DNA from: Erysipelotrichales bacterium
GTDB taxonomy: Bacteria; Bacillota_I; Bacilli_A; Acholeplasmatales; WRBM01
Length of the DNA stretch: 64,000 nt
Direction of reading: 5' to 3'
NCBI GenBank assembly: GCA_009784525.1
Contig: WRBM01000006.1
Span: 1 to 64,000, forward strand
Below are positions 3,849 to 19,880 of this stretch, in pieces. The translations under genes were made by a program, and so were the position numbers. The notes beneath the pieces were generated by a model. The model worked only from the letters and a program-made list of their open reading frames with translations, was not told the origin of the DNA and ran no database searches. The number at the start of each line of letters is the position of its first letter. The first letter of the stretch is position 1.

Positions 3849-5117
3849 TTAATCCTTTAAACATCCTAAAGGTACTACTAATACGCCATCAGACCTTCTA
3901 TAAGCATAACCTGTAGCAGTAATTATCATTAAAAATGTTGGTTGTTTCATAACATCCAAATCAATAGATTCTTTTATCGCCAGTAATGTTTTAGCTGCCT
4001 TCTCAACAGCTTCTTCTCCACCTAGTTTTATCTCTATTAGCCCCCATTTTCCGTTGTCAAGATGAACTATTGCGTCAGCTTCCAAACCTCTTGAATCCCG
4101 ATAATTATATATTTTACCTTCTATGCTTTCTGCATATATTCGTAAATCCCTGATGCAAAGTGATTCAAATAATAAGCCAAATGTATTCAAATCATTGACT
4201 AAATCCATTGGATTTGCGTCTAAAACAGAAGCCGCAATTGAAGGACATGTAAATTGTCTTGTATCTGATGTTCTTAATGTCGCTTTACTTCTAAGTCTTG
4301 GACTCCAAGCTTCAATATCTTCTAAGATAAATAATTTTTTAAGAGCATTTATATAGGACTCAATTGTTCTTACATCAAGTGTCTCATTATTAGTTTGCAT
4401 ATCTTTTTGCAGTGTCTGTAGTTTAGCAGGGGCAGAGATATTTCTGGCATAAGTTCTGATGATTGTTCTTGCTCTTGAAGCGTTTCTTTTGATACCATCA
4501 ACTTCTACGATGTCTGTTTCTACTAATGATGAAACATAATCTTTAGCAATTTTTAATGCAATACTGGAATCAGATATTGTTACAGCTTCGGGCCAACCAC
4601 CTCGACAGATGATAAAAGCAATGTCTTTTAACGACTTTTCTTCCTTACCTGCTATTTGTATATCGCCAGAAAATAAACTCTTTAAAGAAACACTGCCAAT
4701 AGATTCTTCTGATTCAAATAAAGACATTGGTCGCATAACCAGTTTCTTCATTCGACCAATACCTGTATGTCTGCCTTCATTTTCTACTGGCTTAGCTGAT
4801 CCAGTAAGTATGAAATGCCCTTTACCGCCTAAATCATCAATTTCCGCCCGAATATACTCCCATAAATCAGGAATTTTTTGCCATTCGTCAAACATTAAAG
4901 GCTTTTCTCCTTGAAGTAAAGCAACATCTCCATTATCTGAATATAATTTATATACTTTGAATGTATTTGGACGCTGAAGTTCAACTATTGTTTTGGCAAA
5001 TCTTTTCGCAGTAGTTGATTTTCCACACCATTTTGCCCCTTCAACAACAACACAACCTGCCGTTTTTAATGCAAGTTCAAAACTTTTATCAATTAATCTA
5101 TCATAATATTTTGACAT
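3849..5117 (-). CDS. AAA_14 / DUF4143 family ATPase with C-terminal nuclease-like domain
   Basis: This 422-residue P-loop ATPase has Walker A GAKWCGKST at about 27-35, Walker B-like LMFDEWQ near 75-81 and a sensor-type TGSA motif near 105. These are the marks of the AAA_14 domain followed by DUF4143, a family scattered widely in anaerobes with no settled function. The C-terminal part carries ADAIVHLDNGKWGLIEIKLGG-like residues (D, E-x-K), the core of a PD-(D/E)xK fold, but nuclease activity is not shown. The second ATG (5117) was chosen because the upstream ATG sits only one base after GGAG, while 5117 has a normal spacing. It stands alone with its own promoter. A second intact paralogue lies at 54683-55984 and a remnant of a third at 30303-30426. 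Confidence 0.88.
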   Translation of the reverse strand: MSKYYDRLIDKSFELALKTAGCVVVEGAKWCGKSTTAKRFAKTIVELQRPNTFKVYKLYSDNGDVALLQGEKPLMFDEWQKIPDLWEYIRAEIDDLGGKGHFILTGSAKPVENEGRHTGIGRMKKLVMRPMSLFESEESIGSVSLKSLFSGDIQIAGKEEKSLKDIAFIICRGGWPEAVTISDSSIALKIAKDYVSSLVETDIVEVDGIKRNASRARTIIRTYARNISAPAKLQTLQKDMQTNNETLDVRTIESYINALKKLFILEDIEAWSPRLRSKATLRTSDTRQFTCPSIAASVLDANPMDLVNDLNTFGLLFESLCIRDLRIYAESIEGKIYNYRDSRGLEADAIVHLDNGKWGLIEIKLGGEEAVEKAAKTLLAIKESIDLDVMKQPTFLMIITATGYAYRRSDGVLVVPLGCLKD

Positions 5118-5139
5118 AACAATCATTCTCCATAGTTAT

Positions 5140-5170
5140 ATTATACCACAGATAATACGCAAAATGTCAA
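5140..5170 (-). promoter_or_regulatory. Promoter for the AAA_14 gene
   Basis: On the minus strand TTGACA (5165-5170) and TATAAT (5140-5145, extended by TGG) are 19 bases apart, slightly wide. The -35 is part of a 16-base direct repeat (see 5163-5201). Confidence 0.6.
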
Positions 5171-5201
5171 CTTTATCAAGATTTTAATGCTGACTTTATC
5201 A
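5163..5201. repeat. Two 16-base direct repeats around the AAA_14 promoter
   Basis: AATGTCAACTTTATCA (5163-5178) and AATGCTGACTTTATCA (5186-5201) match at 13 of 16 positions with a 23-base period. The first copy contains the -35 box of the AAA_14 gene. This could be a binding site pair for a regulator or a small duplication. Confidence 0.5.
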
Positions 5202-5272
5202 TGTTCTCAATGTAGATTTTGTAAAAAACGCTTTTCAAACAAATAAAAACCTGTAATAACTATAAATAATGC

Positions 5273-5301
5273 TTGAAATTTAGTCATTTTTATGATAAAA
5301 T
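5273..5301 (+). promoter_or_regulatory. Promoter for tRNA-Trp
   Basis: TTGAAA (5273-5278) and TAAAAT (5296-5301) are exactly 17 bases apart, and the tRNA starts 17 bases further on. Confidence 0.65.
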
Positions 5302-5317
5302 TTTATAGCATCAAAAT

Positions 5318-5392
5318 AGGAACATGGTGTCAACGGTAGCACAGAGGTCTCCAAAACCTTTAGTACGGGTTCGAATCCTGTTGTTCCTGCCA
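5318..5392 (+). tRNA. tRNA-Trp (anticodon CCA)
   Basis: A full cloverleaf can be folded: the 7-bp acceptor AGGAACA/TGTTCCT, a D arm GTGT...GCAC, an anticodon stem GAGGT/ACCTT with loop CTCCAAA giving anticodon CCA, a T arm ACGGG/CCTGT with loop TTCGAAT, discriminator G and encoded CCA. The G discriminator fits bacterial tRNA-Trp. CCA reads only UGG, which agrees with UGA being used as a stop in this window. Confidence 0.95.
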
Positions 5393-5484
5393 TATTTAAA
5401 ATAACGGTGTATTACGCTGTTTTTATTTGCGATTGCCAAAATAATTGCCTAAAATAGCCTTAAAATCATAAATATAATCAAATA

Positions 5485-5520
5485 AAAAGCCCTAAACTTA
5501 ATGGAATAGGACTTTTTTTA
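5485..5520. terminator. Bidirectional terminator between tRNA-Trp and the PNPOx gene
   Basis: A 10-bp stem with one mismatch pairs AAAAGCCCTA (5485-5494) with TAGGACTTTT (5507-5516), and T runs flank it in both directions. It can end the tRNA transcript and the converging PNPOx/GNAT transcript. A weaker hairpin ACGGTG/CGCTGT with a T run lies directly after the tRNA near 5402-5423. Besides these and the palindrome at 5551, the 230-base gap 5393-5622 shows nothing coding. Confidence 0.65.
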
Positions 5521-5550
5521 TTATTAAATTACCTATATCGAAATTAATAT

Positions 5551-5572
5551 CGTGTCCAAATTTATGGTCACG
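5551..5572. repeat. Imperfect 22-base palindrome downstream of the tRNA
   Basis: CGTGTCC (5551-5557) and GGTCACG (5566-5572) form an inverted repeat with one mismatch around an AT core. There is no T run, so it does not look like a terminator. A protein-binding site or a remnant end of a mobile element next to a tRNA gene are both possible. Confidence 0.4.
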
Positions 5573-5622
5573 CTTACTTTTTATTTGTTATATTTTTTAA
5601 AAAAATTAATTTATTTTAAGCC

Positions 5623-6045
5623 TTATAAATCAAAGTCATCTACAGAAAAATTTGCATAAAGTCTACCTGATTTAGCTGTGAATTTCAACAAGCAAAAATC
5701 AGGATCACGAAAAGATTTTTCCAAATAGGCATTCTTATACTTTTCTTGCCAAAATTTCTCTTTGATTGTTAAATCAGATACTATTTCCATTATCCCTTTT
5801 AAAGTACAACCTTGCCAAACAAGTAATTTTCGGCTGTAAAAATAAACGGTTGCCTTTGAATTCTCTGATATTGCAGCTACAAATTTAGATGAAGTATTTG
5901 TCGCAAAATATAATTCATTTATCGAATCTCTGTATTTGCCTGGAACTACGGCTTTTGTTAGTGGATATCCATCGCTATCAACACATGATAATATAAATGT
6001 ATTAACTTTTTTATGAAGTTTTTCAGCTTTTTCTTTTATTCTCAT
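5623..6045 (-). CDS. Pyridoxamine 5'-phosphate oxidase-like (PNPOx) flavin-binding family protein
   Basis: This 140-residue protein fits the small split-barrel PNPOx-like family, many of which bind FMN, F420 or haem. Visible family features are the opening strand FILSCVDSDGYPLTKAVVPG (near 18-37), the LYFATNTSSKFVAAI segment where flavin phosphate is usually held, and KATVYFYSR followed by a turn and GIMEIV. True pyridoxamine phosphate oxidases are longer, so a vitamin B6 role is unlikely; a general redox or binding role is inferred. It overlaps the preceding GNAT gene by 4 bases (ATGA), so the two are co-translated. Confidence 0.85.
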   Translation of the reverse strand: MRIKEKAEKLHKKVNTFILSCVDSDGYPLTKAVVPGKYRDSINELYFATNTSSKFVAAISENSKATVYFYSRKLLVWQGCTLKGIMEIVSDLTIKEKFWQEKYKNAYLEKSFRDPDFCLLKFTAKSGRLYANFSVDDFDL

Positions 6046-6626
6046 TTTTTTTCTCCAAAATCCTTAGACTGTGATGCAGCCCATTTTTCTCTTGTAATAC
6101 CATATCGAACAACATCCTGAAACACACCCTTAATTTTAAGCTCTTGTTTTCCGATACCTTCAAATTCCATTCCACATTTTTTCATTACCGCACCAGAGCC
6201 TTCATTGCCAACATAAAAACAAGATTCAACCCGATTTAACTCCAATTTTTCAAAACAAAGTTTTAATAAAGTTGCTAAAGCTTCTGACATATAACCTTTG
6301 TTCCAATATTGACGATTTAATACATAGCCAAAACCAGATTTCTCGTGTTCTGGGATTATTCTTAAATCAATACAACCAATGCACTTCTTTTCTGCTTTTA
6401 ATTCAATCGCAAAGATGCCTGGCCTTGACCAATAAAAATCTGTAATGTTAAAGATAATTTCATCAACTGTCTTTACTCCTTGCCAATCCAGAAATTTTAA
6501 TGTTTCTGTATCAGTAGCGTATTCATAAATATCGGCAATATCACTTTTTAAGAATTTTCTTAAAATCAGTCTTTCTGTTTCAATAGTTTCGTTGTCATAT
6601 AAAACTTCATTATAGTTTGCGACCAT
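6042..6626 (-). CDS. GNAT family N-acetyltransferase (RimJ/RimL type)
   Basis: This 194-residue protein opens with the ETERLILRKF motif typical of RimJ/RimL-like acetyltransferases. It contains GFGYVLNRQYWNKGYMSEAL, the acetyl-CoA binding strand-loop-helix, and NRVESCFYVGNEGSGAVMKKCGMEFEG, the conserved C-terminal half with the NxxS/GxxxxxKxGF pattern. The family acetylates N-termini of ribosomal proteins or small molecules; the substrate here cannot be told. A GAGAGGGG site precedes the ATG. It is the first gene of a two-gene operon with the PNPOx-like gene. Confidence 0.88.
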   Translation of the reverse strand: MVANYNEVLYDNETIETERLILRKFLKSDIADIYEYATDTETLKFLDWQGVKTVDEIIFNITDFYWSRPGIFAIELKAEKKCIGCIDLRIIPEHEKSGFGYVLNRQYWNKGYMSEALATLLKLCFEKLELNRVESCFYVGNEGSGAVMKKCGMEFEGIGKQELKIKGVFQDVVRYGITREKWAASQSKDFGEKK

Positions 6627-6773: not shown

Positions 6774-8489
6774 TTACTTTTCATTAGCTATAAATGAAAC
6801 AGTTATATTTGTGCCTACCCCTACTTTACTTTCCAGCTTGATTTGAGCATTATAATAATTACAAATATGTTTGACTATTGATAGTCCTAAGCCTGTTCCG
6901 CCTTCAGATTTAGTTCGGGCTTTATCAACACGATAAAACCTCTCAAAAATTCGCGGCAGATCTTTTTGTGGAATGCCTATTCCATTATCAATAACTTTTA
7001 AGATAACATTATTTGTTAGCTTTCTAACAGAAACAATAATTTCTCCATCTTCATTAGTATACTTAATCGCATTATCAATAAGATTGGAAACTACTTCCGT
7101 AATCTTTTCATAATTTGCACTAATGACACTCTTGTCTAGTTCCTGAATGATTTTTATATTCTTAGTTTTTGCTTTTGGTGCTAAAGCACTTATAACCTGG
7201 ATTACAATTTTTTCTAAATTTATATCTTCATCAACTAGCAATTTATTTTCTTCTAACTCAGAAATTTTAAGCATATCTTCAATAAGTAATTTCATTCTTA
7301 ACGATTCTCTGTTAATTGTTTCTAAAAAAGCAATATTGATATTTTCATCTTTTAACATAACCTCGCTGTAACCGACTATTGATGATAGTGGTGTATTTAA
7401 CTCATGACCAGCATTCGCGAAGAATTCTTGTTTTTCGATTGCTATTTTTCTGATATCAGTTACATTTTGTACCGCTATAATCAAGCTTATTTTATCAAGA
7501 GATACTGGTAAAAACCTAACTTGAAAGATTTCTCCATTAGCTCTAGTGTGATCGTAAAATATCAAATTCTTCTTTTCTATAGCACTCTTTAGATTTTCGA
7601 GAACAGTAAGATTACGCACAACTTTTTTTATTTCTATAGGTCCATTGTATTCGAAACAGAAAAATTCTTCGGCCATTTTATTACAGGAAATTATGATACC
7701 TTCATTATTTAAAGCAACAATACCTTGATCGATATTCCCTAAAATTAAATCTAACTTTTGTTTTTCAGCAGTGCTTTGCGATAAAGCGTTTCTTAATTTT
7801 TCACTTATCTCATCAATTTCAATAAGCATTTTATTAATCTCATCATGCCGCGTCAACCGTAAAGGATTTTTATTATCTTTTCCTATACTTTCTAATTTTT
7901 CTTTAATCATAAAAATCGGTTCAGTAACACTTTTTGTTAGTTTGGGAGTAATTAGTAATACGGCTAGCATTGTTACTATAAACATACCTAGCATTAATCC
8001 GACAAGTGGCCATAAATAATTATTGATTGTAGCAACAGGTATTGCGATTCTAAGGACTATCTGAAAATCCTCAACATTTACCACTCGGGCCATATACAAA
8101 TAATCAATTCTAAAGGTCTCGCTTCGCCTAATATCTTGCCCCTCACCATAAATTAGAGCATTAATTACTTCCTGGCGATTACTCCTATTTTCCAAACTAG
8201 CAACGTCACTAGAGAGAGTATCTGCTAATACAGTTCCATCAATCGCAATAACGGTAATTCGTAAATCGCCATCTGTCAATCTAACAAGATTATTAAAGTT
8301 ACTGCTTGTTTTCAAGTAATTCTCATAAATTGCTAAATGGTTTCTAGCAGAATTTCTTGCGTTTTGTCTGTTTGTTGCGCTGATAACAAATACCATTGCA
8401 ACAATAAAAACAAGCAACGTTATAGCAACTATAAACATTATTTTTAAAGCAGTAGCCCTATTTAAACTTTTAACATTATCTGTTTTCAT
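6774..8489 (-). CDS. phoR: Phosphate-responsive sensor histidine kinase PhoR
   Basis: This 571-residue membrane kinase has a transmembrane helix at about 14-37, an extracytoplasmic sensor domain to ~160, a second helix at ~162-184, a HAMP linker, a PAS domain (~250-345) and a full kinase core. The H box reads HELNTPLSS with the phospho-accepting His at 362, the N box NLIDNAIKYT, the G1 box DNGIGIP, the F box ERFYRVDKAR and the G2 box GGTGLGLS. Domain order matches the PhoR/WalK class; the assignment to phosphate rests on its place at the end of the pst operon. Its ATG overlaps the phoP stop by 4 bases (ATGA), after AGGAGC, so kinase and regulator are co-translated. Confidence 0.93.
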   Translation of the reverse strand: MKTDNVKSLNRATALKIMFIVAITLLVFIVAMVFVISATNRQNARNSARNHLAIYENYLKTSSNFNNLVRLTDGDLRITVIAIDGTVLADTLSSDVASLENRSNRQEVINALIYGEGQDIRRSETFRIDYLYMARVVNVEDFQIVLRIAIPVATINNYLWPLVGLMLGMFIVTMLAVLLITPKLTKSVTEPIFMIKEKLESIGKDNKNPLRLTRHDEINKMLIEIDEISEKLRNALSQSTAEKQKLDLILGNIDQGIVALNNEGIIISCNKMAEEFFCFEYNGPIEIKKVVRNLTVLENLKSAIEKKNLIFYDHTRANGEIFQVRFLPVSLDKISLIIAVQNVTDIRKIAIEKQEFFANAGHELNTPLSSIVGYSEVMLKDENINIAFLETINRESLRMKLLIEDMLKISELEENKLLVDEDINLEKIVIQVISALAPKAKTKNIKIIQELDKSVISANYEKITEVVSNLIDNAIKYTNEDGEIIVSVRKLTNNVILKVIDNGIGIPQKDLPRIFERFYRVDKARTKSEGGTGLGLSIVKHICNYYNAQIKLESKVGVGTNITVSFIANEK

Positions 8490-9175
8490 ATTTGCTCCTG
8501 TATTAAAATATAACCGATGCCACGAATAGATTGGATCGCCTCACCAGCAACTCCTAATTTTTCCCTAAGATTTTTCATATGAATATCAATAGTCCGAGTC
8601 TCTCCAAAATATTCATAACCCCAAATCTCTTTTAATAATAACTCCCGCTCAACAACATTGCCCACACTAAGCATTAAGAATTTCAAAAGCTCAAATTCCT
8701 TATTAGTTAATGCTATCTTCTTTTCCCCAACTAAAACGATTCGACTTTCTTGATTTAAAATAATCGAATTTACTTTAATTTCATTATTTGAGATAGATAT
8801 AGTTTTTTTCCTAAGGTTTGCCCTAATTCTTGCCATAAGTTCCAAGACAGAAAATGGCTTAGTAATATAATCATCTGCTCCGGCATCTAGTCCAGTAATC
8901 TTGTTTATTTCACTTGCTTTTGCGGTCAACATAATAATAGCTGTACCTGCTGATTTGTATTTTCCTCTAAATATCTTTAGTGCCTCAATACCATCAGTAC
9001 CGCTCATCATTATATCTAGGAGTATAAGATCAGGAATTCTTTTTTCACATTCTGACAAAAGTATGTCGGCATCAGAAAAAGCCATTACATCATATCCTTC
9101 ATTTGTAAGGGCATAACAAATAAGTTCTTTTATTGATTCATCATCTTCAGCTGTATATATAAGTTGCTTTTTCAT
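8486..9175 (-). CDS. phoP: Response regulator PhoP (OmpR family)
   Basis: This 229-residue regulator has a receiver domain with acidic pocket AEDDE (9-13), phospho-accepting Asp54 in LLLDIMM, the TAK switch motif near 87-90 and the KPF lysine near 107. A winged-helix DNA-binding domain follows (ALTNKEFELLKFL ... RTIDIHMKNLREKLG), which places it in the OmpR/PhoB class. It is expected to bind TTTACA-type direct repeats, and such repeats lie before pstS at 14023-14049. It lies between phoU (20 bases upstream) and phoR (overlapping), so the operon likely feeds back on itself. Confidence 0.93.
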   Translation of the reverse strand: MKKQLIYTAEDDESIKELICYALTNEGYDVMAFSDADILLSECEKRIPDLILLDIMMSGTDGIEALKIFRGKYKSAGTAIIMLTAKASEINKITGLDAGADDYITKPFSVLELMARIRANLRKKTISISNNEIKVNSIILNQESRIVLVGEKKIALTNKEFELLKFLMLSVGNVVERELLLKEIWGYEYFGETRTIDIHMKNLREKLGVAGEAIQSIRGIGYILIQEQI

Positions 9176-9195: not shown

Positions 9196-9855
9196 TTAAA
9201 TTATTTTGATATTTTTATGTTTTCCTGTTTTAGAGTAGATAACCCATTCCGCAATATTTTCTGCATGGTCACCAATTTTTTCCAAATGTTTACCAACCAT
9301 TAATAAATAAATAGCCTGATCAGCAAAACTCGGTTTCTCCTTAATCAATTTTATCATTTTCTGCTTTAGTTTGTCAAATAAATTATCAATTAAATCATCG
9401 GTTTCAATTGTTTTTGCGGCTAATTCTAAATCTTGTTTGACAAAACTATTAACACAGTCATAGACCATTTGCCTTGTTAGTTCAGCCATTTGTGGTAAAA
9501 TCTCTAACTTAATCTGATAGTTTTCTTCACACAAATTAAAGACTATTTCACATATATCTCTTGCTTGTCCGGCAATTCTTTCTAAGTCAATAATCATCTT
9601 TAAGGCTGTTGATATTTTTCTTAAATCCGAGGCTACTGGTTGTTGCATCAAAATGATCTTAAGAGCTTTTGATTCAATTTCTGCTTTTAAGATATTAACA
9701 TCATCTTTATAGGCTATAACTTTTTCACATAGCACTTTATCCTGAGTAGTTAAAGCCATAGAACTTTCGCCGATGATTCGCTCTATCAAAGCGACCATGC
9801 CAAGCAACTCTTGTCCAAGTAATTCTAATTCTTTTTGGAATTTATTTCTTAACAT
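9196..9855 (-). CDS. phoU: Phosphate signalling complex accessory protein PhoU
   Basis: This 219-residue, all-helical protein is made of two PhoU repeats. Each has the metal-binding pattern E/D-x-x-x-D: DLERIAGQARDI in the first half and KHLEKIGDHAENI in the second. PhoU proteins couple the Pst transporter to the PhoR kinase and damp phosphate uptake when phosphate is ample. The start ATG shares one base with the pstB stop (TAATG), preceded by GGGAGG, so translation is coupled to pstB. Length is normal for the family. Confidence 0.95.
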   Translation of the reverse strand: MLRNKFQKELELLGQELLGMVALIERIIGESSMALTTQDKVLCEKVIAYKDDVNILKAEIESKALKIILMQQPVASDLRKISTALKMIIDLERIAGQARDICEIVFNLCEENYQIKLEILPQMAELTRQMVYDCVNSFVKQDLELAAKTIETDDLIDNLFDKLKQKMIKLIKEKPSFADQAIYLLMVGKHLEKIGDHAENIAEWVIYSKTGKHKNIKII

Positions 9856-10661
9856 TAGCCAAACCTCCCTGTAATATAATTTTCACATTTTTCATTTTTA
9901 GGATTAGAAAATAGCTCTTCTGTCGGAGCAATCTCTAACATTTCACCAAGTAAGAAAAACGCTGTTTTATCGGATATACGTGTTGCTTGTTGCATATTGT
10001 GGGTTACTATTATAATTGTGTAGTGCTGCTTTAGCTCTTCGCATAATTCTTCAATAATACCCGTGCTTATTGGATCTAAAGCACTTGTTGGTTCATCCAT
10101 GAGTAAGATTTTTGGTTTAACCGCCAAAGCTCTGGCAATGCACAGTCTCTGTTGTTGCCCCCCAGATAATTGTAAGCCAGACTGATTAAGCTTATCTTTA
10201 ACTTCATTCCAAAGGCCTGCCTGCATAAGACTTTCAGTAACAATTTTATCTAAATAAGCTTTTTTCCTTATTCCATAAGTACGTGGACCAAAAGCAATAT
10301 TATCATAAATGCTCATCGGAAAGACATTGGGTTTTTGAAAAACCATACCAACATCTTTTCTTAACTTATTTAAATTGAATTTTTGCTTTTTTTCTTGATT
10401 TATTAGCTCATCTTTTAAATCAAGATCATTAAATAATTCTGTGCCATTTATTTTAATGCTTCCTTTAACATTACAGCCTTCAATTAAATCAATCATTCGG
10501 TTGAAGCATTTCAACAATGTAGTTTTACCGCAACCAGAAGGTCCGATAAAGGCTGTAATTTCATTTTCCATTATATCCATGTTAATATTCTTTAAGGCTT
10601 GGAATTCTCCGTAGAATAAATCTAAATCCCTAACTTTAATTATTACATTTTTTTCTTTCAT
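9855..10661 (-). CDS. pstB: Phosphate ABC transporter ATP-binding protein PstB
   Basis: This 268-residue ATPase powers phosphate import. It has Walker [10 protein letters not shown] (40-48), a Q-loop in [18 protein letters not shown], which is the PstB-specific sequence, the signature [16 protein letters not shown], and Walker [14 protein letters not shown] followed by the H-loop IIVTHNM. It lies 18 bases after pstCA and overlaps phoU by one base. Two copies assemble with the fused PstCA permease at the inner face of the membrane. Confidence 0.97.
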
Positions 10662-10679: not shown

Positions 10680-12914
10680 TTATTTTGCGTAGGCTTTTTT
10701 CTTAAGTAATTTAGCAATAAATGTTGCGCCAATATTTAGCGCTAGTACAATTAATATCAGAATGCTCGCAGCCGCAAATGCCTCATTTTCTCTTCCTGGA
10801 ATTCTAACTAGCGCATAAAATGCTACAGCCAATGTAGTTCCTGATGAAGTATATCCTAATGGGGCTGGTCCTAAACTTGAACCCATCGTAAACATCAAAC
10901 TTGCTGTTTCGGCGACCATTCTGCCAATCCCTAAAATAATCATTGTAACAATACTTGGGAGCGCCGAAGGTAAAACAATACGAAAAATTGTTCTTACTCT
11001 ACCAGCCCCTAAGGCATACGCACCTTCCCGATAAGAATCAGGCACAGACTTTAAACCTTCTTGGGTTGCTCTGACAGTGAGTGGTAATATCATTAGTGAA
11101 ACGACTATGGAACCTGATGTAATTGACAATCCTAAACCTAAGACAGTTACAAATAAAATCATCCCGAATAATCCATAAACAATTGAAGGAATGCCTGCTA
11201 GTGTTTCCAAAGCCAATTCAATAATTTTAGCTAGTTTGCTACCTTTTTTAGCATACTCCTGTAAAAACACTGCTGTTAAAATACCTATCGGAAATGCTAT
11301 TATACTAGTAAGCAGCACATACATCAAAGTCGTTATTATAGCTGGCCTTAAAGTAATTGGATGATTTCTGCCAAAACCAGTAAATTCTCCAGTAAGTAAA
11401 CGCCAGTTTATTTGACTTAAACCGTTTATCAGAACATAAAAAATCATCGATCCTAAAAAAAATAAAGAAAATACTAACATTACAAATGATATAATTTTTG
11501 CAATTTTAGGCAATATGTTGATTAATTTTGTTAATATTGATTCTGAAATCATCTCATCAAAACTTAAAGAATCCTTAACATCTTTATTCTTTTGTCTCAG
11601 AAAAAGTTTACTAATAAATCGCTTTATCGAAGGCATGATAATCGGATTTTTATTTGCTTTTTTATTGCCTTTAATTAAATTAAATATCAAGTTAATAATC
11701 AGAACAAATATTAGTAAAACAACACCAGTACCAACAAGGGCCCCTTGATGAAGAGAGCCGGGTTCAGAATATGCCATTTCAAAAACAATATTTACCGTAA
11801 GAGTACGAAAAGGTTGAAACAGGCCGCCTGGCATTTGCGCAATATTGCCAGCGACCATAATAACTGCCATCGTTTCCCCAACAGCTCTACCAATTCCCAA
11901 TATAAGTGAGGCAAAAATACCTGATTTGGCAGCTGGCACTACCGCTTTAAAAACTGTTCTTTCTTTACTTGCACCAAGTGCTACACCAGCTTCAAAATAT
12001 GAACTGCTAACAGCTTCAATGCTATTTACAGAAATTGAAACAACCGTAGGTAAAATCATCATCCCCAATACTATAGCTACTGCTAGCGGACCTGAACCAC
12101 CACTAGAACTAATAGCTGCCAGAATCGGCAAGAGCACTTGCATTCCAAAGAAACCAAAAATTACCGAAGGTATACCTGCCAAAAGTGCGATAGCTTGCAA
12201 AACAAAAGGCTTTATTTTCTTCGGACAAAACCATACTATGCACACCGCCGTAAGAACTCCTAAGCCACCACCGATTATTAACGCTCCCAAAGCCGCAACA
12301 ATCGTGCCTACAATCATCGGCAAAACGTTATAGATACTTCTGATACTTGGATCATTAGGATTGTGCCCCCAATAAGCCGGAGAGTCTGGATCATGAATCC
12401 AGGTTCTACCAAAAATAAACCTAATGAATCCTATTTCACGGATTGCTGGCATTCCCTCTAATACAAGAAAGAAAAAAATAGTAAATACAGCTAGTATCGC
12501 TATTATTGCTGAGATAAGGAAGCCAACTTTAAAAGAAAGTTCTTTATCATATACAGCAATCAGGCTTAAAGTTGAAATTATGATTGCGATTACTAAAGCT
12601 AAGACAAGGGCTAAAATAAAAGGAAATCCAAACCAGCCAGCAATGAAAAAGGCTAAAAACGCTGATATAGTTGCTGTCAGAAGACAAGTCCAAATTATTG
12701 TAAACCATAAGGCAATTAACAGTCTTTTATCTGATGTTTTGGCAAACTCTAACATACTATTGGCGTTAGAATTTTCTTTATACCCTTTAATCTTAAGATA
12801 TGCCATAATCAAAAATGGCGGAAATAAGCCAAATAATGCCATAAAAAATATTCTGCTTATACTTTTTTTATCTATGTTAAAATTTATATTTTGATTTTCA
12901 TTTAAATTCTTCAT
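10680..12914 (-). CDS. pstCA: Fused phosphate ABC transporter permease PstC-PstA
   Basis: One frame encodes about 744 residues with two complete permease domains. The N-terminal ~160 residues add extra hydrophobic segments. The PstC-like half ends near residue 415 and holds the cytoplasmic coupling loop EAGVALGASKERTVFKAVVP. A polar linker of ~50 residues follows, then the PstA-like half with EGAYALGAGRVRTIFRIVLP. In most bacteria these are separate genes; here a single chain would form the whole transmembrane channel. The start is uncertain: a GTG at 12956 lies inside a hairpin, while the ATG at 12914 lacks a ribosome site but overlaps the stop of a 15-codon leader frame by ATGA, so translational coupling is likely. 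I chose 12914. Confidence 0.92.
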   Translation of the reverse strand: MKNLNENQNINFNIDKKSISRIFFMALFGLFPPFLIMAYLKIKGYKENSNANSMLEFAKTSDKRLLIALWFTIIWTCLLTATISAFLAFFIAGWFGFPFILALVLALVIAIIISTLSLIAVYDKELSFKVGFLISAIIAILAVFTIFFFLVLEGMPAIREIGFIRFIFGRTWIHDPDSPAYWGHNPNDPSIRSIYNVLPMIVGTIVAALGALIIGGGLGVLTAVCIVWFCPKKIKPFVLQAIALLAGIPSVIFGFFGMQVLLPILAAISSSGGSGPLAVAIVLGMMILPTVVSISVNSIEAVSSSYFEAGVALGASKERTVFKAVVPAAKSGIFASLILGIGRAVGETMAVIMVAGNIAQMPGGLFQPFRTLTVNIVFEMAYSEPGSLHQGALVGTGVVLLIFVLIINLIFNLIKGNKKANKNPIIMPSIKRFISKLFLRQKNKDVKDSLSFDEMISESILTKLINILPKIAKIISFVMLVFSLFFLGSMIFYVLINGLSQINWRLLTGEFTGFGRNHPITLRPAIITTLMYVLLTSIIAFPIGILTAVFLQEYAKKGSKLAKIIELALETLAGIPSIVYGLFGMILFVTVLGLGLSITSGSIVVSLMILPLTVRATQEGLKSVPDSYREGAYALGAGRVRTIFRIVLPSALPSIVTMIILGIGRMVAETASLMFTMGSSLGPAPLGYTSSGTTLAVAFYALVRIPGRENEAFAAASILILIVLALNIGATFIAKLLKKKAYAK

Positions 12915-12958
12915 ATTATAACGTAAGAACATGTGTATAGCTTTTTTGCCATACACAT
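12911..12958 (-). promoter_or_regulatory. Intercistronic hairpin and possible 15-codon leader peptide between pstS and pstCA
   Basis: A 10-bp stem (12932-12941 with 12948-12957, one wobble pair, 6-A loop on the transcript) lies between pstS and pstCA. No T run follows it, so it is not a classic terminator; it could stabilise the pstS message and set pstS above pstCA. A short frame ATG at 12958 (MCMAKKLYTCSYVII) follows AAAGGA and ends in TGA that overlaps the pstCA ATG by 4 bases. Confidence 0.55.
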
Positions 12959-12980: not shown

Positions 12981-13916
12981 TTATTCTAAAATAATATCTG
13001 CCCATTCTCTGATTTCACCAGTATAGATCGCAAATAATTGAGCCATAGTAATGCTAGTTAATGGATTATTACTATTAACAACAACAGCCATCGTATCTTG
13101 AGCTAAAAAGAATGTTCTAGCGTTAGTTGTTGTTATATGAGCAGCATTAGAACTCATACCAATCGTTCTATTTGGTTCACTACCTTGAATTGTGCCACCG
13201 CTACCTGCTGTCACACCTTGACCGCTGCCACCAGCATGAAAATCAAAATCAGCGACTGTTGCCCAGCTAACTAAAGCAATAAAACCGTCAATAAGTTCAC
13301 TCATAACTTCTTCTACAGATGTTGATCCTCTAATTTGAATTGGTTCTGACTGACCTTCTGGTCTTGTGGCTGGCGCCGTAAAGCTAACTGGATTTTCTAC
13401 GCTAAAATCATAACCTTCAGCTTCTACAATTGCTTGAGCCTGACTAGATTGAATAAAATCTAAAAACAATTGACTAAGCGGTAATAATTCTGCATTTTCA
13501 TATGTTAAAATTACATAATCCCTTGCTAAGGCTGCAGGATAACCTGCTATACCAGGAGCTACTCCGTCAATATTAAGCACTCTTAAATTATTATCATTTG
13601 CTACTGCAGATAATGAAGCATAACCAATAGCATTACGTTGACTTCTAACTCTGGTTAATACACCAGGTTGACCATGTTGCTCTTCACCTGCTAATGAATT
13701 ACCAGCTAACGCTAACCAGCTTGCCAAAGTAGCTCGATTGTCGCCATCTAATCCATTATGAATTGAAGTATTCCATTGAGTTCTTGTCCCAGAACCACTC
13801 TCTCTTGATACGGCAATAATCTGCATATCTCTTACATCGCTAGAACAAGCAGTAAGTCCCAAACATGTAAAAACCCCTAAAGAAACTATCGCAATTAATT
13901 TTGTTATTTTTTTCAT
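12981..13916 (-). CDS. pstS: Phosphate ABC transporter substrate-binding lipoprotein PstS, permuted domain order
   Basis: This 311-residue lipoprotein has a signal peptide with lipobox LTAC (Cys24), so it is held on the outer face of the membrane. It binds phosphate for the Pst system. The two lobes are in unusual order: the chain opens with the ISRESGSGTR-type segment (here VSRESGSGTRTQW, ~36-48), normally in the second half of PstS, and the segment IRGSTSVEEVMSEL ... GGSGQGVTAG ... LFAIYTGEIREW, normally at the N-terminus, comes last (~198-308). The phosphate-contacting pieces GSTSV, SGSGTR and GSGQG are all present, so it should be functional. It heads the pst operon, after AGGAGA-like and PhoP-box sequences, 22 bases before the hairpin ahead of pstCA. 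Confidence 0.92.
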   Translation of the reverse strand: MKKITKLIAIVSLGVFTCLGLTACSSDVRDMQIIAVSRESGSGTRTQWNTSIHNGLDGDNRATLASWLALAGNSLAGEEQHGQPGVLTRVRSQRNAIGYASLSAVANDNNLRVLNIDGVAPGIAGYPAALARDYVILTYENAELLPLSQLFLDFIQSSQAQAIVEAEGYDFSVENPVSFTAPATRPEGQSEPIQIRGSTSVEEVMSELIDGFIALVSWATVADFDFHAGGSGQGVTAGSGGTIQGSEPNRTIGMSSNAAHITTTNARTFFLAQDTMAVVVNSNNPLTSITMAQLFAIYTGEIREWADIILE

Positions 13917-14213: not shown

Positions 14214-15263
14214 TTATCCTCTGAAATTGAAGTTTATTCTCAGTTCAATGTCTCTGTAATCTAACCGAGTATAATCCATATGTCTTTGAAATAATATTCT
14301 TCGAAAACCAAAGAAATCAAAACCATCCCTAATACCAAGCTCAATAAGTTCGTTAAAATGTCTGCTCATTTCCTCTTTTAGTTTCTCAATAAGAAAAGTC
14401 ATAGGATGATTTTCAATATTAATAAGTGGTATGACATGGGCCCTGATATTAATCACAAAAACATTTCTTTCAATTCTTAAGTTATAACGGTAATTTGATA
14501 ATCTCAGTGTCACATCATCAATCGGCATAATGATAGTCTGCCTATTTTCCAAGAAAAAAAGTGCTTTATGTTCTTCCATGTGATAACATTTTATACTCTC
14601 GCCGATAAAGCATTGTCTTTGAATAGCCGCTGTATTAAATTCTTCACCAGCTTGGCTGATTCTTGCTTCGCCAATTTCTATTTTTGGCAGAATAAGATCA
14701 GAATAACTTTGATGAAACATCAACGCAAAATTAATGAAATGAATGCCAGATAGTCCAAATGCTGCATATCTGTTACTTCTTGGATTATTAAAGATACTAT
14801 GAAACATACTGTATTCATCGGGATTTCTTGTATCATAAATTTCCTCAATGTCTTCCGATGTAAAGAAAACAAAAAAGTTATTAGGAATTCTTGAGGTTAA
14901 TCTAATAAATTCTAAAAATGTCGCGATATTTCTTTCGTTCATAAAGCTTTCATGTAGGATTACTGATTGAATATGCCTTAACTCAACTTTCTGATCGACT
15001 GAACGTTCCAGTTCTTCAAAAAGCATTGCTAAATTTCTATGTTCAGTAATAATTAAACCATATTGAAAACCTCTATTATTATCTGTTTTACCGATATCAG
15101 CATTACTTGGATAAAAAGCTGTAATCCTGAAAACAGAGTTTTCTTCTTCATATTCTAAAGCGAATGAAGTAACAAGTAAAAATTCATTAATGCCAACTTT
15201 ATTGAAACAGCCTTGTAAAATTAAAATAAAGGCAAAGATAAATATCAGTGATAATTTCTTCAT
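14214..15263 (-). CDS. Spore germination lipoprotein GerC (Ger(x)C family)
   Basis: This 349-residue protein has a short signal peptide ending in a lipobox (LQGC, Cys19), as all GerC subunits do. The N-terminal domain contains the family run FLLVTSFALEYE and the HRNLAMLFEELERSVDQKVELRHIQSVILHESF stretch; the C-terminal domain ends in ELRINFNFRG. GerC works with the GerA and GerB subunits as a germinant receptor in the inner spore membrane. It is the last gene of the operon and overlaps gerA by 4 bases. It is a little shorter than the B. subtilis subunits (~370). Confidence 0.9.
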   Translation of the reverse strand: MKKLSLIFIFAFILILQGCFNKVGINEFLLVTSFALEYEEENSVFRITAFYPSNADIGKTDNNRGFQYGLIITEHRNLAMLFEELERSVDQKVELRHIQSVILHESFMNERNIATFLEFIRLTSRIPNNFFVFFTSEDIEEIYDTRNPDEYSMFHSIFNNPRSNRYAAFGLSGIHFINFALMFHQSYSDLILPKIEIGEARISQAGEEFNTAAIQRQCFIGESIKCYHMEEHKALFFLENRQTIIMPIDDVTLRLSNYRYNLRIERNVFVINIRAHVIPLINIENHPMTFLIEKLKEEMSRHFNELIELGIRDGFDFFGFRRILFQRHMDYTRLDYRDIELRINFNFRG

Positions 15264-16684
15264 GATTTGTTCTTCCTCTTACCATCTAAAGGTTCTAAAA
15301 CATCCGGACGGTTGCCTTGTTGGCGACTTGATTTTGTTTGAAAGAATTGGACAAAATCGGGTCGGTTAAAAGGCACAAACGGATGAAGAAAAGAAACATT
15401 AAGAAATTTATGCCGACAAACATAGCTAAATAAAATTATTGTGGCGATACTTAAACCAAAGACACCAAACAATAGACTAGCAAAAAGCATAATCAAACGT
15501 AAAAAGGAAATTGTTATTAAAAAATTAATATCGGAAGTAACTGTAAAAGCGGCTAAGAAAGAGAAAGCAGTAACTACCATAACAACGATACCTACTAGAC
15601 CTGAAGCTACCGTTGCCTGTCCCATTAAGATACCACCAACTACTATGACTATCGACTGAACAGTAAAACCAGGACTTCTTAAGCCAACTAATTGATAGAG
15701 CTCAAAGAGCAATAAAAGAATTAATATCTCATTGAAGGCTGAAAAAATTACACCTCTTTGCGTCACTTGCAAGGTCGCAATCATCAAAAGTGAGAGATTT
15801 GTACTGTGAAAGGTATAAAAGCTAGCCATAATACCAAGCCAAAATACAGAGATGAATAAAGCGACTAAAACATAAAACCTTAAAAAAGTGCTGTAATAAG
15901 ATGGTGCCTGCATATCTAAGCGGAGTTTTGTTATAAAAAACAGGGAAGTCGGCAAAATTAAAGCATTAGGAATGCGGTCAATCATAATAACAACCTGACC
16001 CTTATAAATCGCTTCTGCGGCCATTTCCGGGCTTCCGACGTAAGATGTCGTTGGAAAGATTCGTTTATTATTGAAATAAGTTGTCAAGTCTGATAACGTT
16101 AAAATACTTTCTGCTTCAATTTTTTGAACTATTTTCTTTATTTTGTTCAAAAGATGGGTATTGGTAATATCAGTCATACTTAGAATATTAATCCTTGTCT
16201 GGCTTCGCTCGCCAAGAACGTATTCATCAATCTTAAACTTCTCACTTTTGATTCTAGTTCTGATTAGCTGAATGTTTGTATTCAAACTTTCAATGAAACC
16301 ATCTCTCGAGCCAAAAATATTATTAGGTTCACTCATTGAATCAGTGATACCACGTTCTTTAGGGCTTGGCAAAGCTACCGCATAAACTGTCTTATTTTTA
16401 ACAATAATAATAAAACCATTAAAAATCTGATTTCTGATTTGTTCCATCGTTTCCTTTAAAGCACCAAGATTGATTTTAGTAACAATATTTGGAAGAATTT
16501 TATCAATCTCTTTTACATTTTTAATCATTGGCAAATAAAACTTTTCAAAATTATCTATATTAGCCATTTCTTCCTGATAATAAATTGAAAAAGTCTCATC
16601 TCCCTGATATTCTTTTTTCTTAACATCTTTGGAATCAGCGAAATATTTTTTTATTTCATTGTTAATAAAGTATTTAAGTAACAT
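15260..16684 (-). CDS. Spore germination receptor subunit GerA (GerABKA family)
   Basis: This 474-residue protein is a membrane subunit of the germinant receptor. The N-terminal soluble domain (~1-260) contains the family-defining stretch SRDGFIESLNTNIQLIRTRI (near 125-145), a slightly altered form of the usual RGPREGFxE motif, and GRVLTD-like segments are replaced by RIPNALILPT near 237. Five or so transmembrane segments follow, including LVGLRSPGFTVQSIVIVVGGILMGQATVASGLV, highly characteristic of the family, and a basic tail. GGAGG precedes the ATG. It overlaps gerB by 11 bases and gerC by 4, so the receptor is made as one unit. No germinant can be inferred. Confidence 0.93.
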   Translation of the reverse strand: MLLKYFINNEIKKYFADSKDVKKKEYQGDETFSIYYQEEMANIDNFEKFYLPMIKNVKEIDKILPNIVTKINLGALKETMEQIRNQIFNGFIIIVKNKTVYAVALPSPKERGITDSMSEPNNIFGSRDGFIESLNTNIQLIRTRIKSEKFKIDEYVLGERSQTRINILSMTDITNTHLLNKIKKIVQKIEAESILTLSDLTTYFNNKRIFPTTSYVGSPEMAAEAIYKGQVVIMIDRIPNALILPTSLFFITKLRLDMQAPSYYSTFLRFYVLVALFISVFWLGIMASFYTFHSTNLSLLMIATLQVTQRGVIFSAFNEILILLLLFELYQLVGLRSPGFTVQSIVIVVGGILMGQATVASGLVGIVVMVVTAFSFLAAFTVTSDINFLITISFLRLIMLFASLLFGVFGLSIATIILFSYVCRHKFLNVSFLHPFVPFNRPDFVQFFQTKSSRQQGNRPDVLEPLDGKRKNKS

Positions 16685-17708
16685 CAGGCGGCCTCCTTCT
16701 TATAATCAGATAAAGATAACTAGGTAATAAAAGAATGATAAAGACTAGAAAAATCATCTCAAAACTTCTCTGTAAAACATGGAAGTACTGATTGAGTAAA
16801 AATGTACACAAACCTATAATAAATACTAGCGTGATAGTATAGGTTTTTCGGTTTTTCAAATTAGTAACCATTCTAAAATTTATTAAGTTGAAACTACATT
16901 TTACGATACAAATAACTGTTAAGAATATTATCTTGAAAAAGTTTATATCGCCAAAGTAACTATAATTGTTTTGAATATTGAGGATCGTCATGCCTAAAAA
17001 TTCAAAGTTACGCAAAAATAATGTATCAAAGATTGAAGTAAAGTCAAAGGTAAATAAAGATATCGCCACTCCGAAGAAAACAAATGGATAGAAAAGCGTT
17101 CTTTTCCTAAATTTTTCTGAATAGAAATCTTTTAGGTAATAACCAATAAAGATATCTAAGGGCACGTAAAGCAATAACAAGACCGCCAAGTTATTGGAGT
17201 TTAAGGATATAGGAATTATCGGTAATAGTAAATCAAATTGCCTTAGTGGCATATCACTAAAGAAAATCAAGAAATAACCGCCAATTAAAAATAACAAAAA
17301 AATTATTGATATATGAAATAAATTCATAATTCCATTACGACAAAGATAAAATAAAGCTACAAGCAAACCAATAATAAACAGTATTTCTGTATAATCATAA
17401 AAAATTAATGTTACGAGAATCCTAACAGTCATGCTTAAAAGAATAACAGTCTGTAAGAAAAAATAAGCTGCCAAAGAAATTCTTAAAAGATAATTATTTG
17501 TATAACTTTTTAATAGTGGCAGTTTTGTGACTGAACGGCTAATTGGTAAATATAGCAAAAAAGAAAACAAAATAAAATAAACACCTGTCTGCCAGGTATT
17601 GTTTCCAAAATGATTATCGAGATACGGCATAAAAAAATAAAGGAATATTGTAATATTCATCATTGTAAAGAAAACTATTATGCTTATGTTCCCAACCTTA
17701 GAATTCAT
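16674..17708 (-). CDS. Spore germination receptor subunit GerB (amino-acid permease-like)
   Basis: This 344-residue, ten-helix membrane protein belongs to the GerAB subfamily of the APC superfamily, which forms the germinant-binding channel-like subunit of the receptor. It begins in the membrane after a short polar start and keeps the regular helix-loop pattern to residue ~335; a basic tail (RRRPPD) ends it. Sequence motifs of this family are weak, so assignment relies on size, topology and its position directly before gerA, which it overlaps by 11 bases. B-A-C is one of several known ger gene orders. The ATG has no strong ribosome site; GGGCG is the nearest purine-rich run. Confidence 0.85.
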   Translation of the reverse strand: MNSKVGNISIIVFFTMMNITIFLYFFMPYLDNHFGNNTWQTGVYFILFSFLLYLPISRSVTKLPLLKSYTNNYLLRISLAAYFFLQTVILLSMTVRILVTLIFYDYTEILFIIGLLVALFYLCRNGIMNLFHISIIFLLFLIGGYFLIFFSDMPLRQFDLLLPIIPISLNSNNLAVLLLLYVPLDIFIGYYLKDFYSEKFRKRTLFYPFVFFGVAISLFTFDFTSIFDTLFLRNFEFLGMTILNIQNNYSYFGDINFFKIIFLTVICIVKCSFNLINFRMVTNLKNRKTYTITLVFIIGLCTFLLNQYFHVLQRSFEMIFLVFIILLLPSYLYLIIRRRPPDVT

Positions 17709-18920: not shown

Positions 18921-19880
18921 TCAATTCTCATCCTTATCAAATAATTTTTTTATATCATCTGGACTATCCGCAATTAACTCTGTTAAACTAACGTTAAAGC
19001 TATCTAGTTCCGGATAATTTTTTCTTTCTTTTAAATAAACCTTTACCTTTTCATAATTTTCAATTTTTAAATAACAGTGTAAAGGATAACTCTGCCAATA
19101 ATGATTATATTTATAGGAATTAAGTCGTTTCTGTAAATATTCAAAAATTGGGTTTTCCTCATCATAGATATTCATTACTACTTTATTATCTTTATTAACA
19201 TTTTCCAGTAAAGCGCCATTGTCAATTAAAAGCTGACACATCTCTAAATTTTCATTTCTGACTGCGCTAAACAAAGGAGTCTCTAACTGATTATTAACTT
19301 TGAAGGGTCTAACGTTCTGTCCGATTAAATAAGCTGTTACAGTCAATGAGTTAGCTTTAACTGCAATATGAAGCAAACTATCTTTACGAAAATTGACAGT
19401 ATTTACATTCAGATCAGTCTTTTGAAGAAGATAAGTTAGCATGGAAACTGATCCACTTCTAACAGCATAAAACAAAATATTCTCCTGATCATGATTGCTT
19501 CTTCGATAATCCGTCTCTTCCTCAAAGAAAAGCGCAACAGCTTCAATGTTTCCTTTTAAAACGGCTAAAAATAAAGGTATCTCGCCTTTATTATTCAATA
19601 GATAATTATTTGCTTTAAATTTAAGCAATAATTTAAGGAAATTAATTTTGCCAAGCTGAGCAGCAAAATGTAAGGCACTATTGCCGTTAAGGTCTGTCTT
19701 ATCGATTGCAATCTTAGCATTAACAAGTAACAAGGCAATTTCAAAATTGTCATAAATAACTGCATAATGAAGTAAAGTTTTTCCGGTATTGTCAGTGACA
19801 TCAGGGCTACCATGCTTCAGATATTTTTTCATTTCTTCAATTGAATTTTCTATTAGCAACCGAAAGGGATCAACAAACAT
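18921..19880 (-). CDS. Ankyrin-repeat protein
   Basis: This 319-residue protein consists of about six ankyrin repeats between residues 28 and 235, with clear G-x-T-x-L-H-x-A and G-x-x-x-x-V-x-x-L-L motifs (GKTLLHYAVIYDNFEIALLL, GNSALHFAAQLGKINFLKLL, ETPLFSAVRNENLEMCQLLI). The last ~80 residues are polar and not recognised. There is no signal peptide, so it is cytoplasmic, and its role should be protein-protein binding. It is co-transcribed with the Fe-S aldo/keto reductase (stop and start one base apart), which makes that enzyme a candidate partner; this is inference only. Confidence 0.88.
   Translation of the reverse strand: MFVDPFRLLIENSIEEMKKYLKHGSPDVTDNTGKTLLHYAVIYDNFEIALLLVNAKIAIDKTDLNGNSALHFAAQLGKINFLKLLLKFKANNYLLNNKGEIPLFLAVLKGNIEAVALFFEEETDYRRSNHDQENILFYAVRSGSVSMLTYLLQKTDLNVNTVNFRKDSLLHIAVKANSLTVTAYLIGQNVRPFKVNNQLETPLFSAVRNENLEMCQLLIDNGALLENVNKDNKVVMNIYDEENPIFEYLQKRLNSYKYNHYWQSYPLHCYLKIENYEKVKVYLKERKNYPELDSFNVSLTELIADSPDDIKKLFDKDEN

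Follow-up and report, generated by a model that had tools for sequence, protein, structure and literature searches.

The pstS gene of the 64,000-nucleotide stretch of DNA analysed here, which we call the window, codes for a true circular permutation of PstS: both halves are present once and are complementary, and the C-terminal half precedes the N-terminal half. We consider it very likely that the product is a phosphate-binding lipoprotein whose circularly permuted chain originated, and is being turned over, by tandem duplication, fusion and trimming. It is also probable, though we hold this with somewhat less confidence, that the permutation is reversible and ongoing in the window's taxonomic order, single permuted genes giving gene-converted C-N-C-N doubles and these giving trimmed permutants, including scarred revertants with the canonical order. 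Natural circular permutations are usually known as end points, and the duplication-and-trimming route is deduced. With a permuted gene, a fused double, another cut and a way back in one family and one order, both the route and whether it is reversible can be tested directly. New here are the in-frame doubles (six intact), the shifted permutant (one) and the apparent canonical-order revertants (three) of the window's order.

The window gene is a single unbroken ORF preceded by a ribosome-binding site-like AGGAGA. Its parts and the genes that follow it in the operon are listed below.

12981..13916, minus strand: permuted pstS, 311 residues (locus L001, the window copy), from profile matches, with the C-half followed by the N-half according to the half-profiles.
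13845..13916, minus strand: signal peptide and lipobox with the lipid cysteine at residue 24, from the sequence; Cys24 is invariant in 14 permuted proteins.
13392..13826, minus strand: former C-terminal half, residues 31-175 (SRESGSGTR ... IGYASL ... DFIQSSQAQAIVEAEGYD), from the C half-profile and, in part, PF13531 (84-169).
13347..13391, minus strand: new linker from the old C-terminus to the old N-terminus, residues 176-190, from the printed termini and linkers of the permuted ORFs.
12996..13346, minus strand: former N-terminal half, residues 191-307 (GSTSV ... GSGQG ... IGMSS ... IYTGEIREW), from PF12849 (189-307) and the N half-profile.
10680..12956, minus strand: fused PstC-PstA permease, 758 residues, from TIGR02138 (142-430) and TIGR00974 (484-752), both above cut-off.
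9855..10661, minus strand: PstB ATPase, from the sequence; as a query it finds PstB in related operons.
9196..9855, minus strand: PhoU, from sequence and position; as a query it finds PhoU in related operons.
8486..9175, minus strand: PhoB-like response regulator, from PF00072 and PF00486.

In 4q8r and other PDB chains, the canonical order of the motifs is GSTS, GSxxG, TGKITNW and SREDGSGTR. In the window protein SRESGSGTR is found at residues 37-45, and GSTSV, GSGQG and IYTGEIREW all lie within the last third; the linear order of the family, from N-half to C-half, is thus inverted. With canonical PstS (TIGR02136 or PF12849; 4q8r, 4gd5, 1twy), the window protein shares motifs, halves and operon partners, but the halves are reversed. 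A reading of the sequence alone had claimed such a permutation of the lobes and proposed a family search as a check, and the Pfam and NCBIfam matches are indeed split and in reversed order. PF12849 aligns residues 189-307 with its positions 8-125 (62.4 bits, cut-off 27), and PF13531 separately matches residues 84-169 of the C-half at 24.2 bits, slightly below its cut-off of 25. TIGR02136 splits over the protein, its best stretch joining residues 189-308 to profile positions 37-155; as the score of 100 bits is below the cut-off of 206.6, this model would not name the protein. Using phmmer, 4h1x is aligned in one stretch (33-307 to 11-263), whereas the alignments of the canonical 1twy and 4q8r each break into two pieces in exchanged order. 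A profile of the 14 permuted relatives matched 22 PDB sequences, among which 4h1x is the sole full-length single stretch (28-307), and the ten other chains among the eleven best matches align in two stretches.

The same sequence-only reading held that the TGEIREW end and the SRESGSGTR start are contiguous in normal PstS. The termini and linkers of the permuted ORFs, L001 included, confirm that the chain is opened in the TGEIxxW/SREGSGTR loop and that the old termini are joined. A PstS from a separate metagenome-assembled genome (L004), 75% identical in its best segment, has the same half order over residues 1-309, so the order in the window is not an assembly artefact.

Permuted PstS is a recurring variant, as had been supposed for other anaerobic Bacillota. 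A TIGR02136 search of the window's order matched 32 of 61 genomes, and row-by-row reading assigned single permuted genes to 25 of them, doubles to five, a shifted permutant to one and a canonical-order paralogue alone to one (G037). In the phylum, the permuted profile, which favours permuted proteins, matched 137 of 295 genomes, 64 of them with weak or partial rows alone that were left out of the classes; by row reading, 56 of the 295 have permuted-type PstS (51 single, four doubles and one shifted) and in 18 canonical PstS was recognised from a pair of half-rows in N-C order, with one of these 18 (G270) having a permuted gene as well. Half-profile analyses over all loci yielded 71 C-N, 37 N-C, five C-N-C-N and one C-N-C unique ORFs, and with added loci 92, 40, seven and one, respectively, the seventh C-N-C-N being the frameshifted gene of G390. 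In a further search 73 of 160 genomes were matched, and five could not be placed as having an intact gene: G390 (L207) has a double with a frameshift in its first half, the pstS of G380 (L208) is scattered across several frames, and G325, G339 and G383 harbour fragments. Two equal-scoring permuted copies are found ~99 kb apart in G335 (contig C1, positions 1631916 and 1730846).

Beyond the phylum, permuted PstS is encoded on plasmids of Monoglobus pectinilyticus and Treponema saccharophilum and, in material without an assigned lineage, in human-faecal records filed as phage (five of nine matched records cover at least 80%) and on two IMG/VR contigs. On the latter (L066 and L067, filed as viral), the permuted pstS adjoins genes for a PnrA-like lipoprotein and a ribonucleotide reductase. 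A viral scan with the Monoglobus PstS as the query found nothing.

We then asked how many permutations these proteins represent. For the PstS tree, four of 119 half-profile units were dropped because a half was shorter than 90 residues, and 30 of the remaining 115 rows were dropped as long branches or near-copies. The tree of the rotated alignment contains a clade A of 50 rows (100/95) and a clade B of 10 rows with 4h1x (98/93); the window pair is a long branch apart from both. In the tree of PstC, PstA and PstB, clade A is recovered (98/99) and the window joins clade B, the Monoglobus/Treponema/gut group (100/99). A single clade for the permuted-PstS operons of A and B is rejected by the transporter tree (p-AU 0.0136, with 42 of 60 rows kept and 18 dropped as long branches or near-copies), although such a clade for all permuted PstS remains acceptable on the PstS tree (p-AU 0.157); for this reason it is favoured, but not proven, that the same loop was opened in two separate permutations. 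A single permutation ancestral to all permuted PstS, the canonical-order groups between the permuted clades being misplaced, is possible but appears rather doubtful to us. The identical cut site in all permuted clades and the PstS tree are compatible with it; the transporter tree speaks against it, as does the length of the first PstA loop, which varies by clade (120-145, 16 and 20 residues).

In clade A this loop contains an insert of ~115 residues in all 29 operons, making it 120-145 residues long versus 9-18 in all 20 canonical operons. The insert carries a conserved YFSxKWGIA...YIDxNSP pattern, and the loop presumably faces outward, given the topology of PstA. No solid match was obtained in the PDB and none among known families; an assignment to PDZ did not hold up, since PDZ_2 (E 0.051) and PDZ_6 (E 0.18) each matched one of 15 members. 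A link between the insert and the permutation was rejected: the three revertants described below retain the insert, while clade B and the window are devoid of it, and it thus marks the lineage rather than the PstS order. In L215 (G329), the PstA ORF of 509 residues apparently has the insert twice.

The order of the window operon is pstS, fused PstC-PstA, PstB, PhoU and PhoB-like regulator, and among the 60 operons of the transporter tree the PstC-PstA fusion is limited to the window and L004. Complete pst operons also surround permuted PstS in M. pectinilyticus, T. saccharophilum and other genomes. The plasmid-borne proteins of the two named species (L068 and L131) are permuted and head pstC-pstA-pstB-phoU operons that the transporter tree groups with that of the window, but pstC and pstA are separate genes there in contrast with the window fusion; the Monoglobus PstS is 31% identical to the window protein. 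Beside the window operon are spore germination genes (Spore_GerAC_N and GerA, 14214-16684), followed by an ORF (16674-17708) with no match in a Pfam search; an ankyrin-repeat protein is encoded at 18921-19880.

The joining of the old N- and C-termini by a linker, with new termini opened in the TGEIxxW/SREGSGTR loop, should leave the two-lobed fold and its binding cleft the same. The window PstS is therefore predicted to capture phosphate, to dock and to deliver its ligand to the fused PstCA/PstB transporter, with its lipid anchor probably moved to the other lobe by the permutation. R38, S42, G43, T44, S198, S231 and S256, which we take to be the equivalents of the phosphate contacts of E. coli PstS, are invariant in the 14 permuted proteins, like Cys24, in line with the earlier claim that the ligand-contacting parts are kept. 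We regard it as improbable that the protein, although permuted, serves another anion or sensing alone rather than phosphate uptake. The residue that follows IGMSS is Asn, where nearly all relatives have Arg (IGMSSN in place of IGxxSR), and the host genome also codes for another, distant permuted PstS, whose pstC and pstA genes are separate; both observations could fit such a role. However, the gene sits with pstCA, pstB, phoU and a response regulator gene, and the contact-equivalent residues are invariant.

As for how the permuted order arises, we propose that tandem duplication of pstS would be followed by in-frame fusion and by trimming at new ends, and that this process continues in related lineages, where it would also give doubles, a new permutant and a reversion to the canonical order. 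The sequence-only reading had not anticipated tandem, re-cut or reverted forms in relatives. Among the loci examined, none represents a direct intermediate of the first permutation. Intact in-frame C-N-C-N genes are present in six genomes (G006, G007, G022, G032, G041 and G323). In the five that were measured, the repeat bodies within a gene are 84-99% identical and the last 40 residues 51-82%. Between G007 and G032, the bodies are 66-68% identical, as against 89-99% within each gene, and the tails in the same position are 57 and 66% identical, as against 47 and 49% crosswise. Bodies alike within a gene and tails alike by position between genomes fit an old double whose repeats have been homogenised through gene conversion. 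Of the eight genomes of genus g6, three have doubles, four have singles and one has a fragment. One pst operon, in L091 (G317, 4496-6514), contains two permuted pstS genes that are separate but adjacent, and such a side-by-side pair is a possible forerunner of the fused doubles.

The shifted permutant, in G050, is composed of the C-tail, the N-half and the C-head; the tail carries the fused signal peptide, and the next gene is pstC. In a first transporter tree its operon formed a sister pair with the operon of the G041 double (100/100). In a larger tree its nearest relative is the single permuted gene of G326, then G041 (99). As the nearest PstS is a single permuted gene, a tandem step for G050 rests on its wider kinship with G041.

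Three genomes of the window's order, G397, G412 and G413, have pstS in N-C order. These proteins fall within clade A, next to doubles, both in a 14-row group of the PstS tree (100/100) and in the transporter tree (100). Two of them (L211 and L212) extend beyond the canonical end into a stretch that resembles the linker of permuted proteins (E 1.5e-6 and 5.8e-6), and inside their junctions lies FDTSKKI or FDTSKQI, a spacer located after the lipid cysteine in permuted relatives. The third (L204) also extends past the canonical end, but its linker match (E 1.6) is not significant, the best of 37 canonical proteins giving 1.0, and no lipoprotein spacer was found in its junction. Among the other N-C junctions, 34 of 37 contain a GG pair or a [GN]Gx[DEN] turn, which is present in none of seven doubles; among the three proteins, only L212 has GG, within its spacer. 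They therefore look like revertants with scars, namely a linker tail (significant in two of three) and a lipoprotein spacer in the junction (two of three). It is very improbable that they kept the ancestral order while permuted neighbours arose around them: their order is canonical and L204 has no significant linker scar, but a tree in which they join canonical PstS is rejected (p-AU 0.0012), the transporter tree places them beside tandems, their tails overrun the canonical end and their junctions are devoid of the ancestral turn.

Structure prediction, another check proposed at the outset, gave a concordant picture. An AlphaFold2 model of the window protein (model residue i being protein residue i+24) was built from an alignment of nine rows, namely the window protein, L004, L066 and the halves of L143, L144 and L005; a single-sequence model was set aside (pLDDT 32). 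The model has a pLDDT of 69.5 and a pTM of 0.63, with pLDDT <50 at 42 of 287 residues (206-245, in the N-half). The lone Foldseek match in the PDB under E 1e-3 is 4H1X (1.7e-16). With VIA-align, 4H1X aligns end to end with model residues 7-285 (220 residues, Z 18.3, rmsd 5.2 Å), whereas the next 11 chains, all PstS-type, have Z of at most 8.4. Seven of these are confined to model residues 1-148, matched by their own C-terminal parts, and the other four have ranges extending to residues 176-229, with 95-147 residues aligned. The model is thus not linear with canonical PstS over its whole length, and the end-to-end alignment of 4H1X versus partial alignments of the other chains is the pattern expected from circular permutation. 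As regards the Type I (cluster B) sugar-binding fold, the best structure matches in the PDB are PstS-type, 4H1X first. It is extremely improbable that the window chain is a tandem of two PstS-like domains, unrelated or partial. Its profile matches do fall in two stretches, but these complement each other within a single profile (37-156 and 159-292), the alignment with 4H1X spans the entire chain as a single fold, and no such tandem is seen in the chain.

Judging from this model, the permuted PstS architecture is already solved, as 4H1X, the PstS2 of Streptococcus pneumoniae (SP_2084), which has the same half order as the window protein and 24-30% identity. Pst2 of S. pneumoniae is a working second phosphate transporter (PMC4913102), and that paper contains no word beginning with 'permut'. 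In the open-licence full-text literature we found no description of permuted PstS and no mention of 4H1X. The title of PDB entry 9l8j mentions an 'evolutionary hotspot', but no corresponding paper was found. A naturally permuted, tethered substrate-binding lipoprotein is known from treponemes and Gram-positives, MglB-2 of Treponema pallidum (Tp0684), classified as 'Type Ic / Cluster Bc' (PMC4990184). It differs from the PstS relatives described here in that the available portion of PMC4990184 mentions neither tandem nor reverted forms of it, and it has a glucose-binding Type I fold with a cut site different from that of the window PstS.
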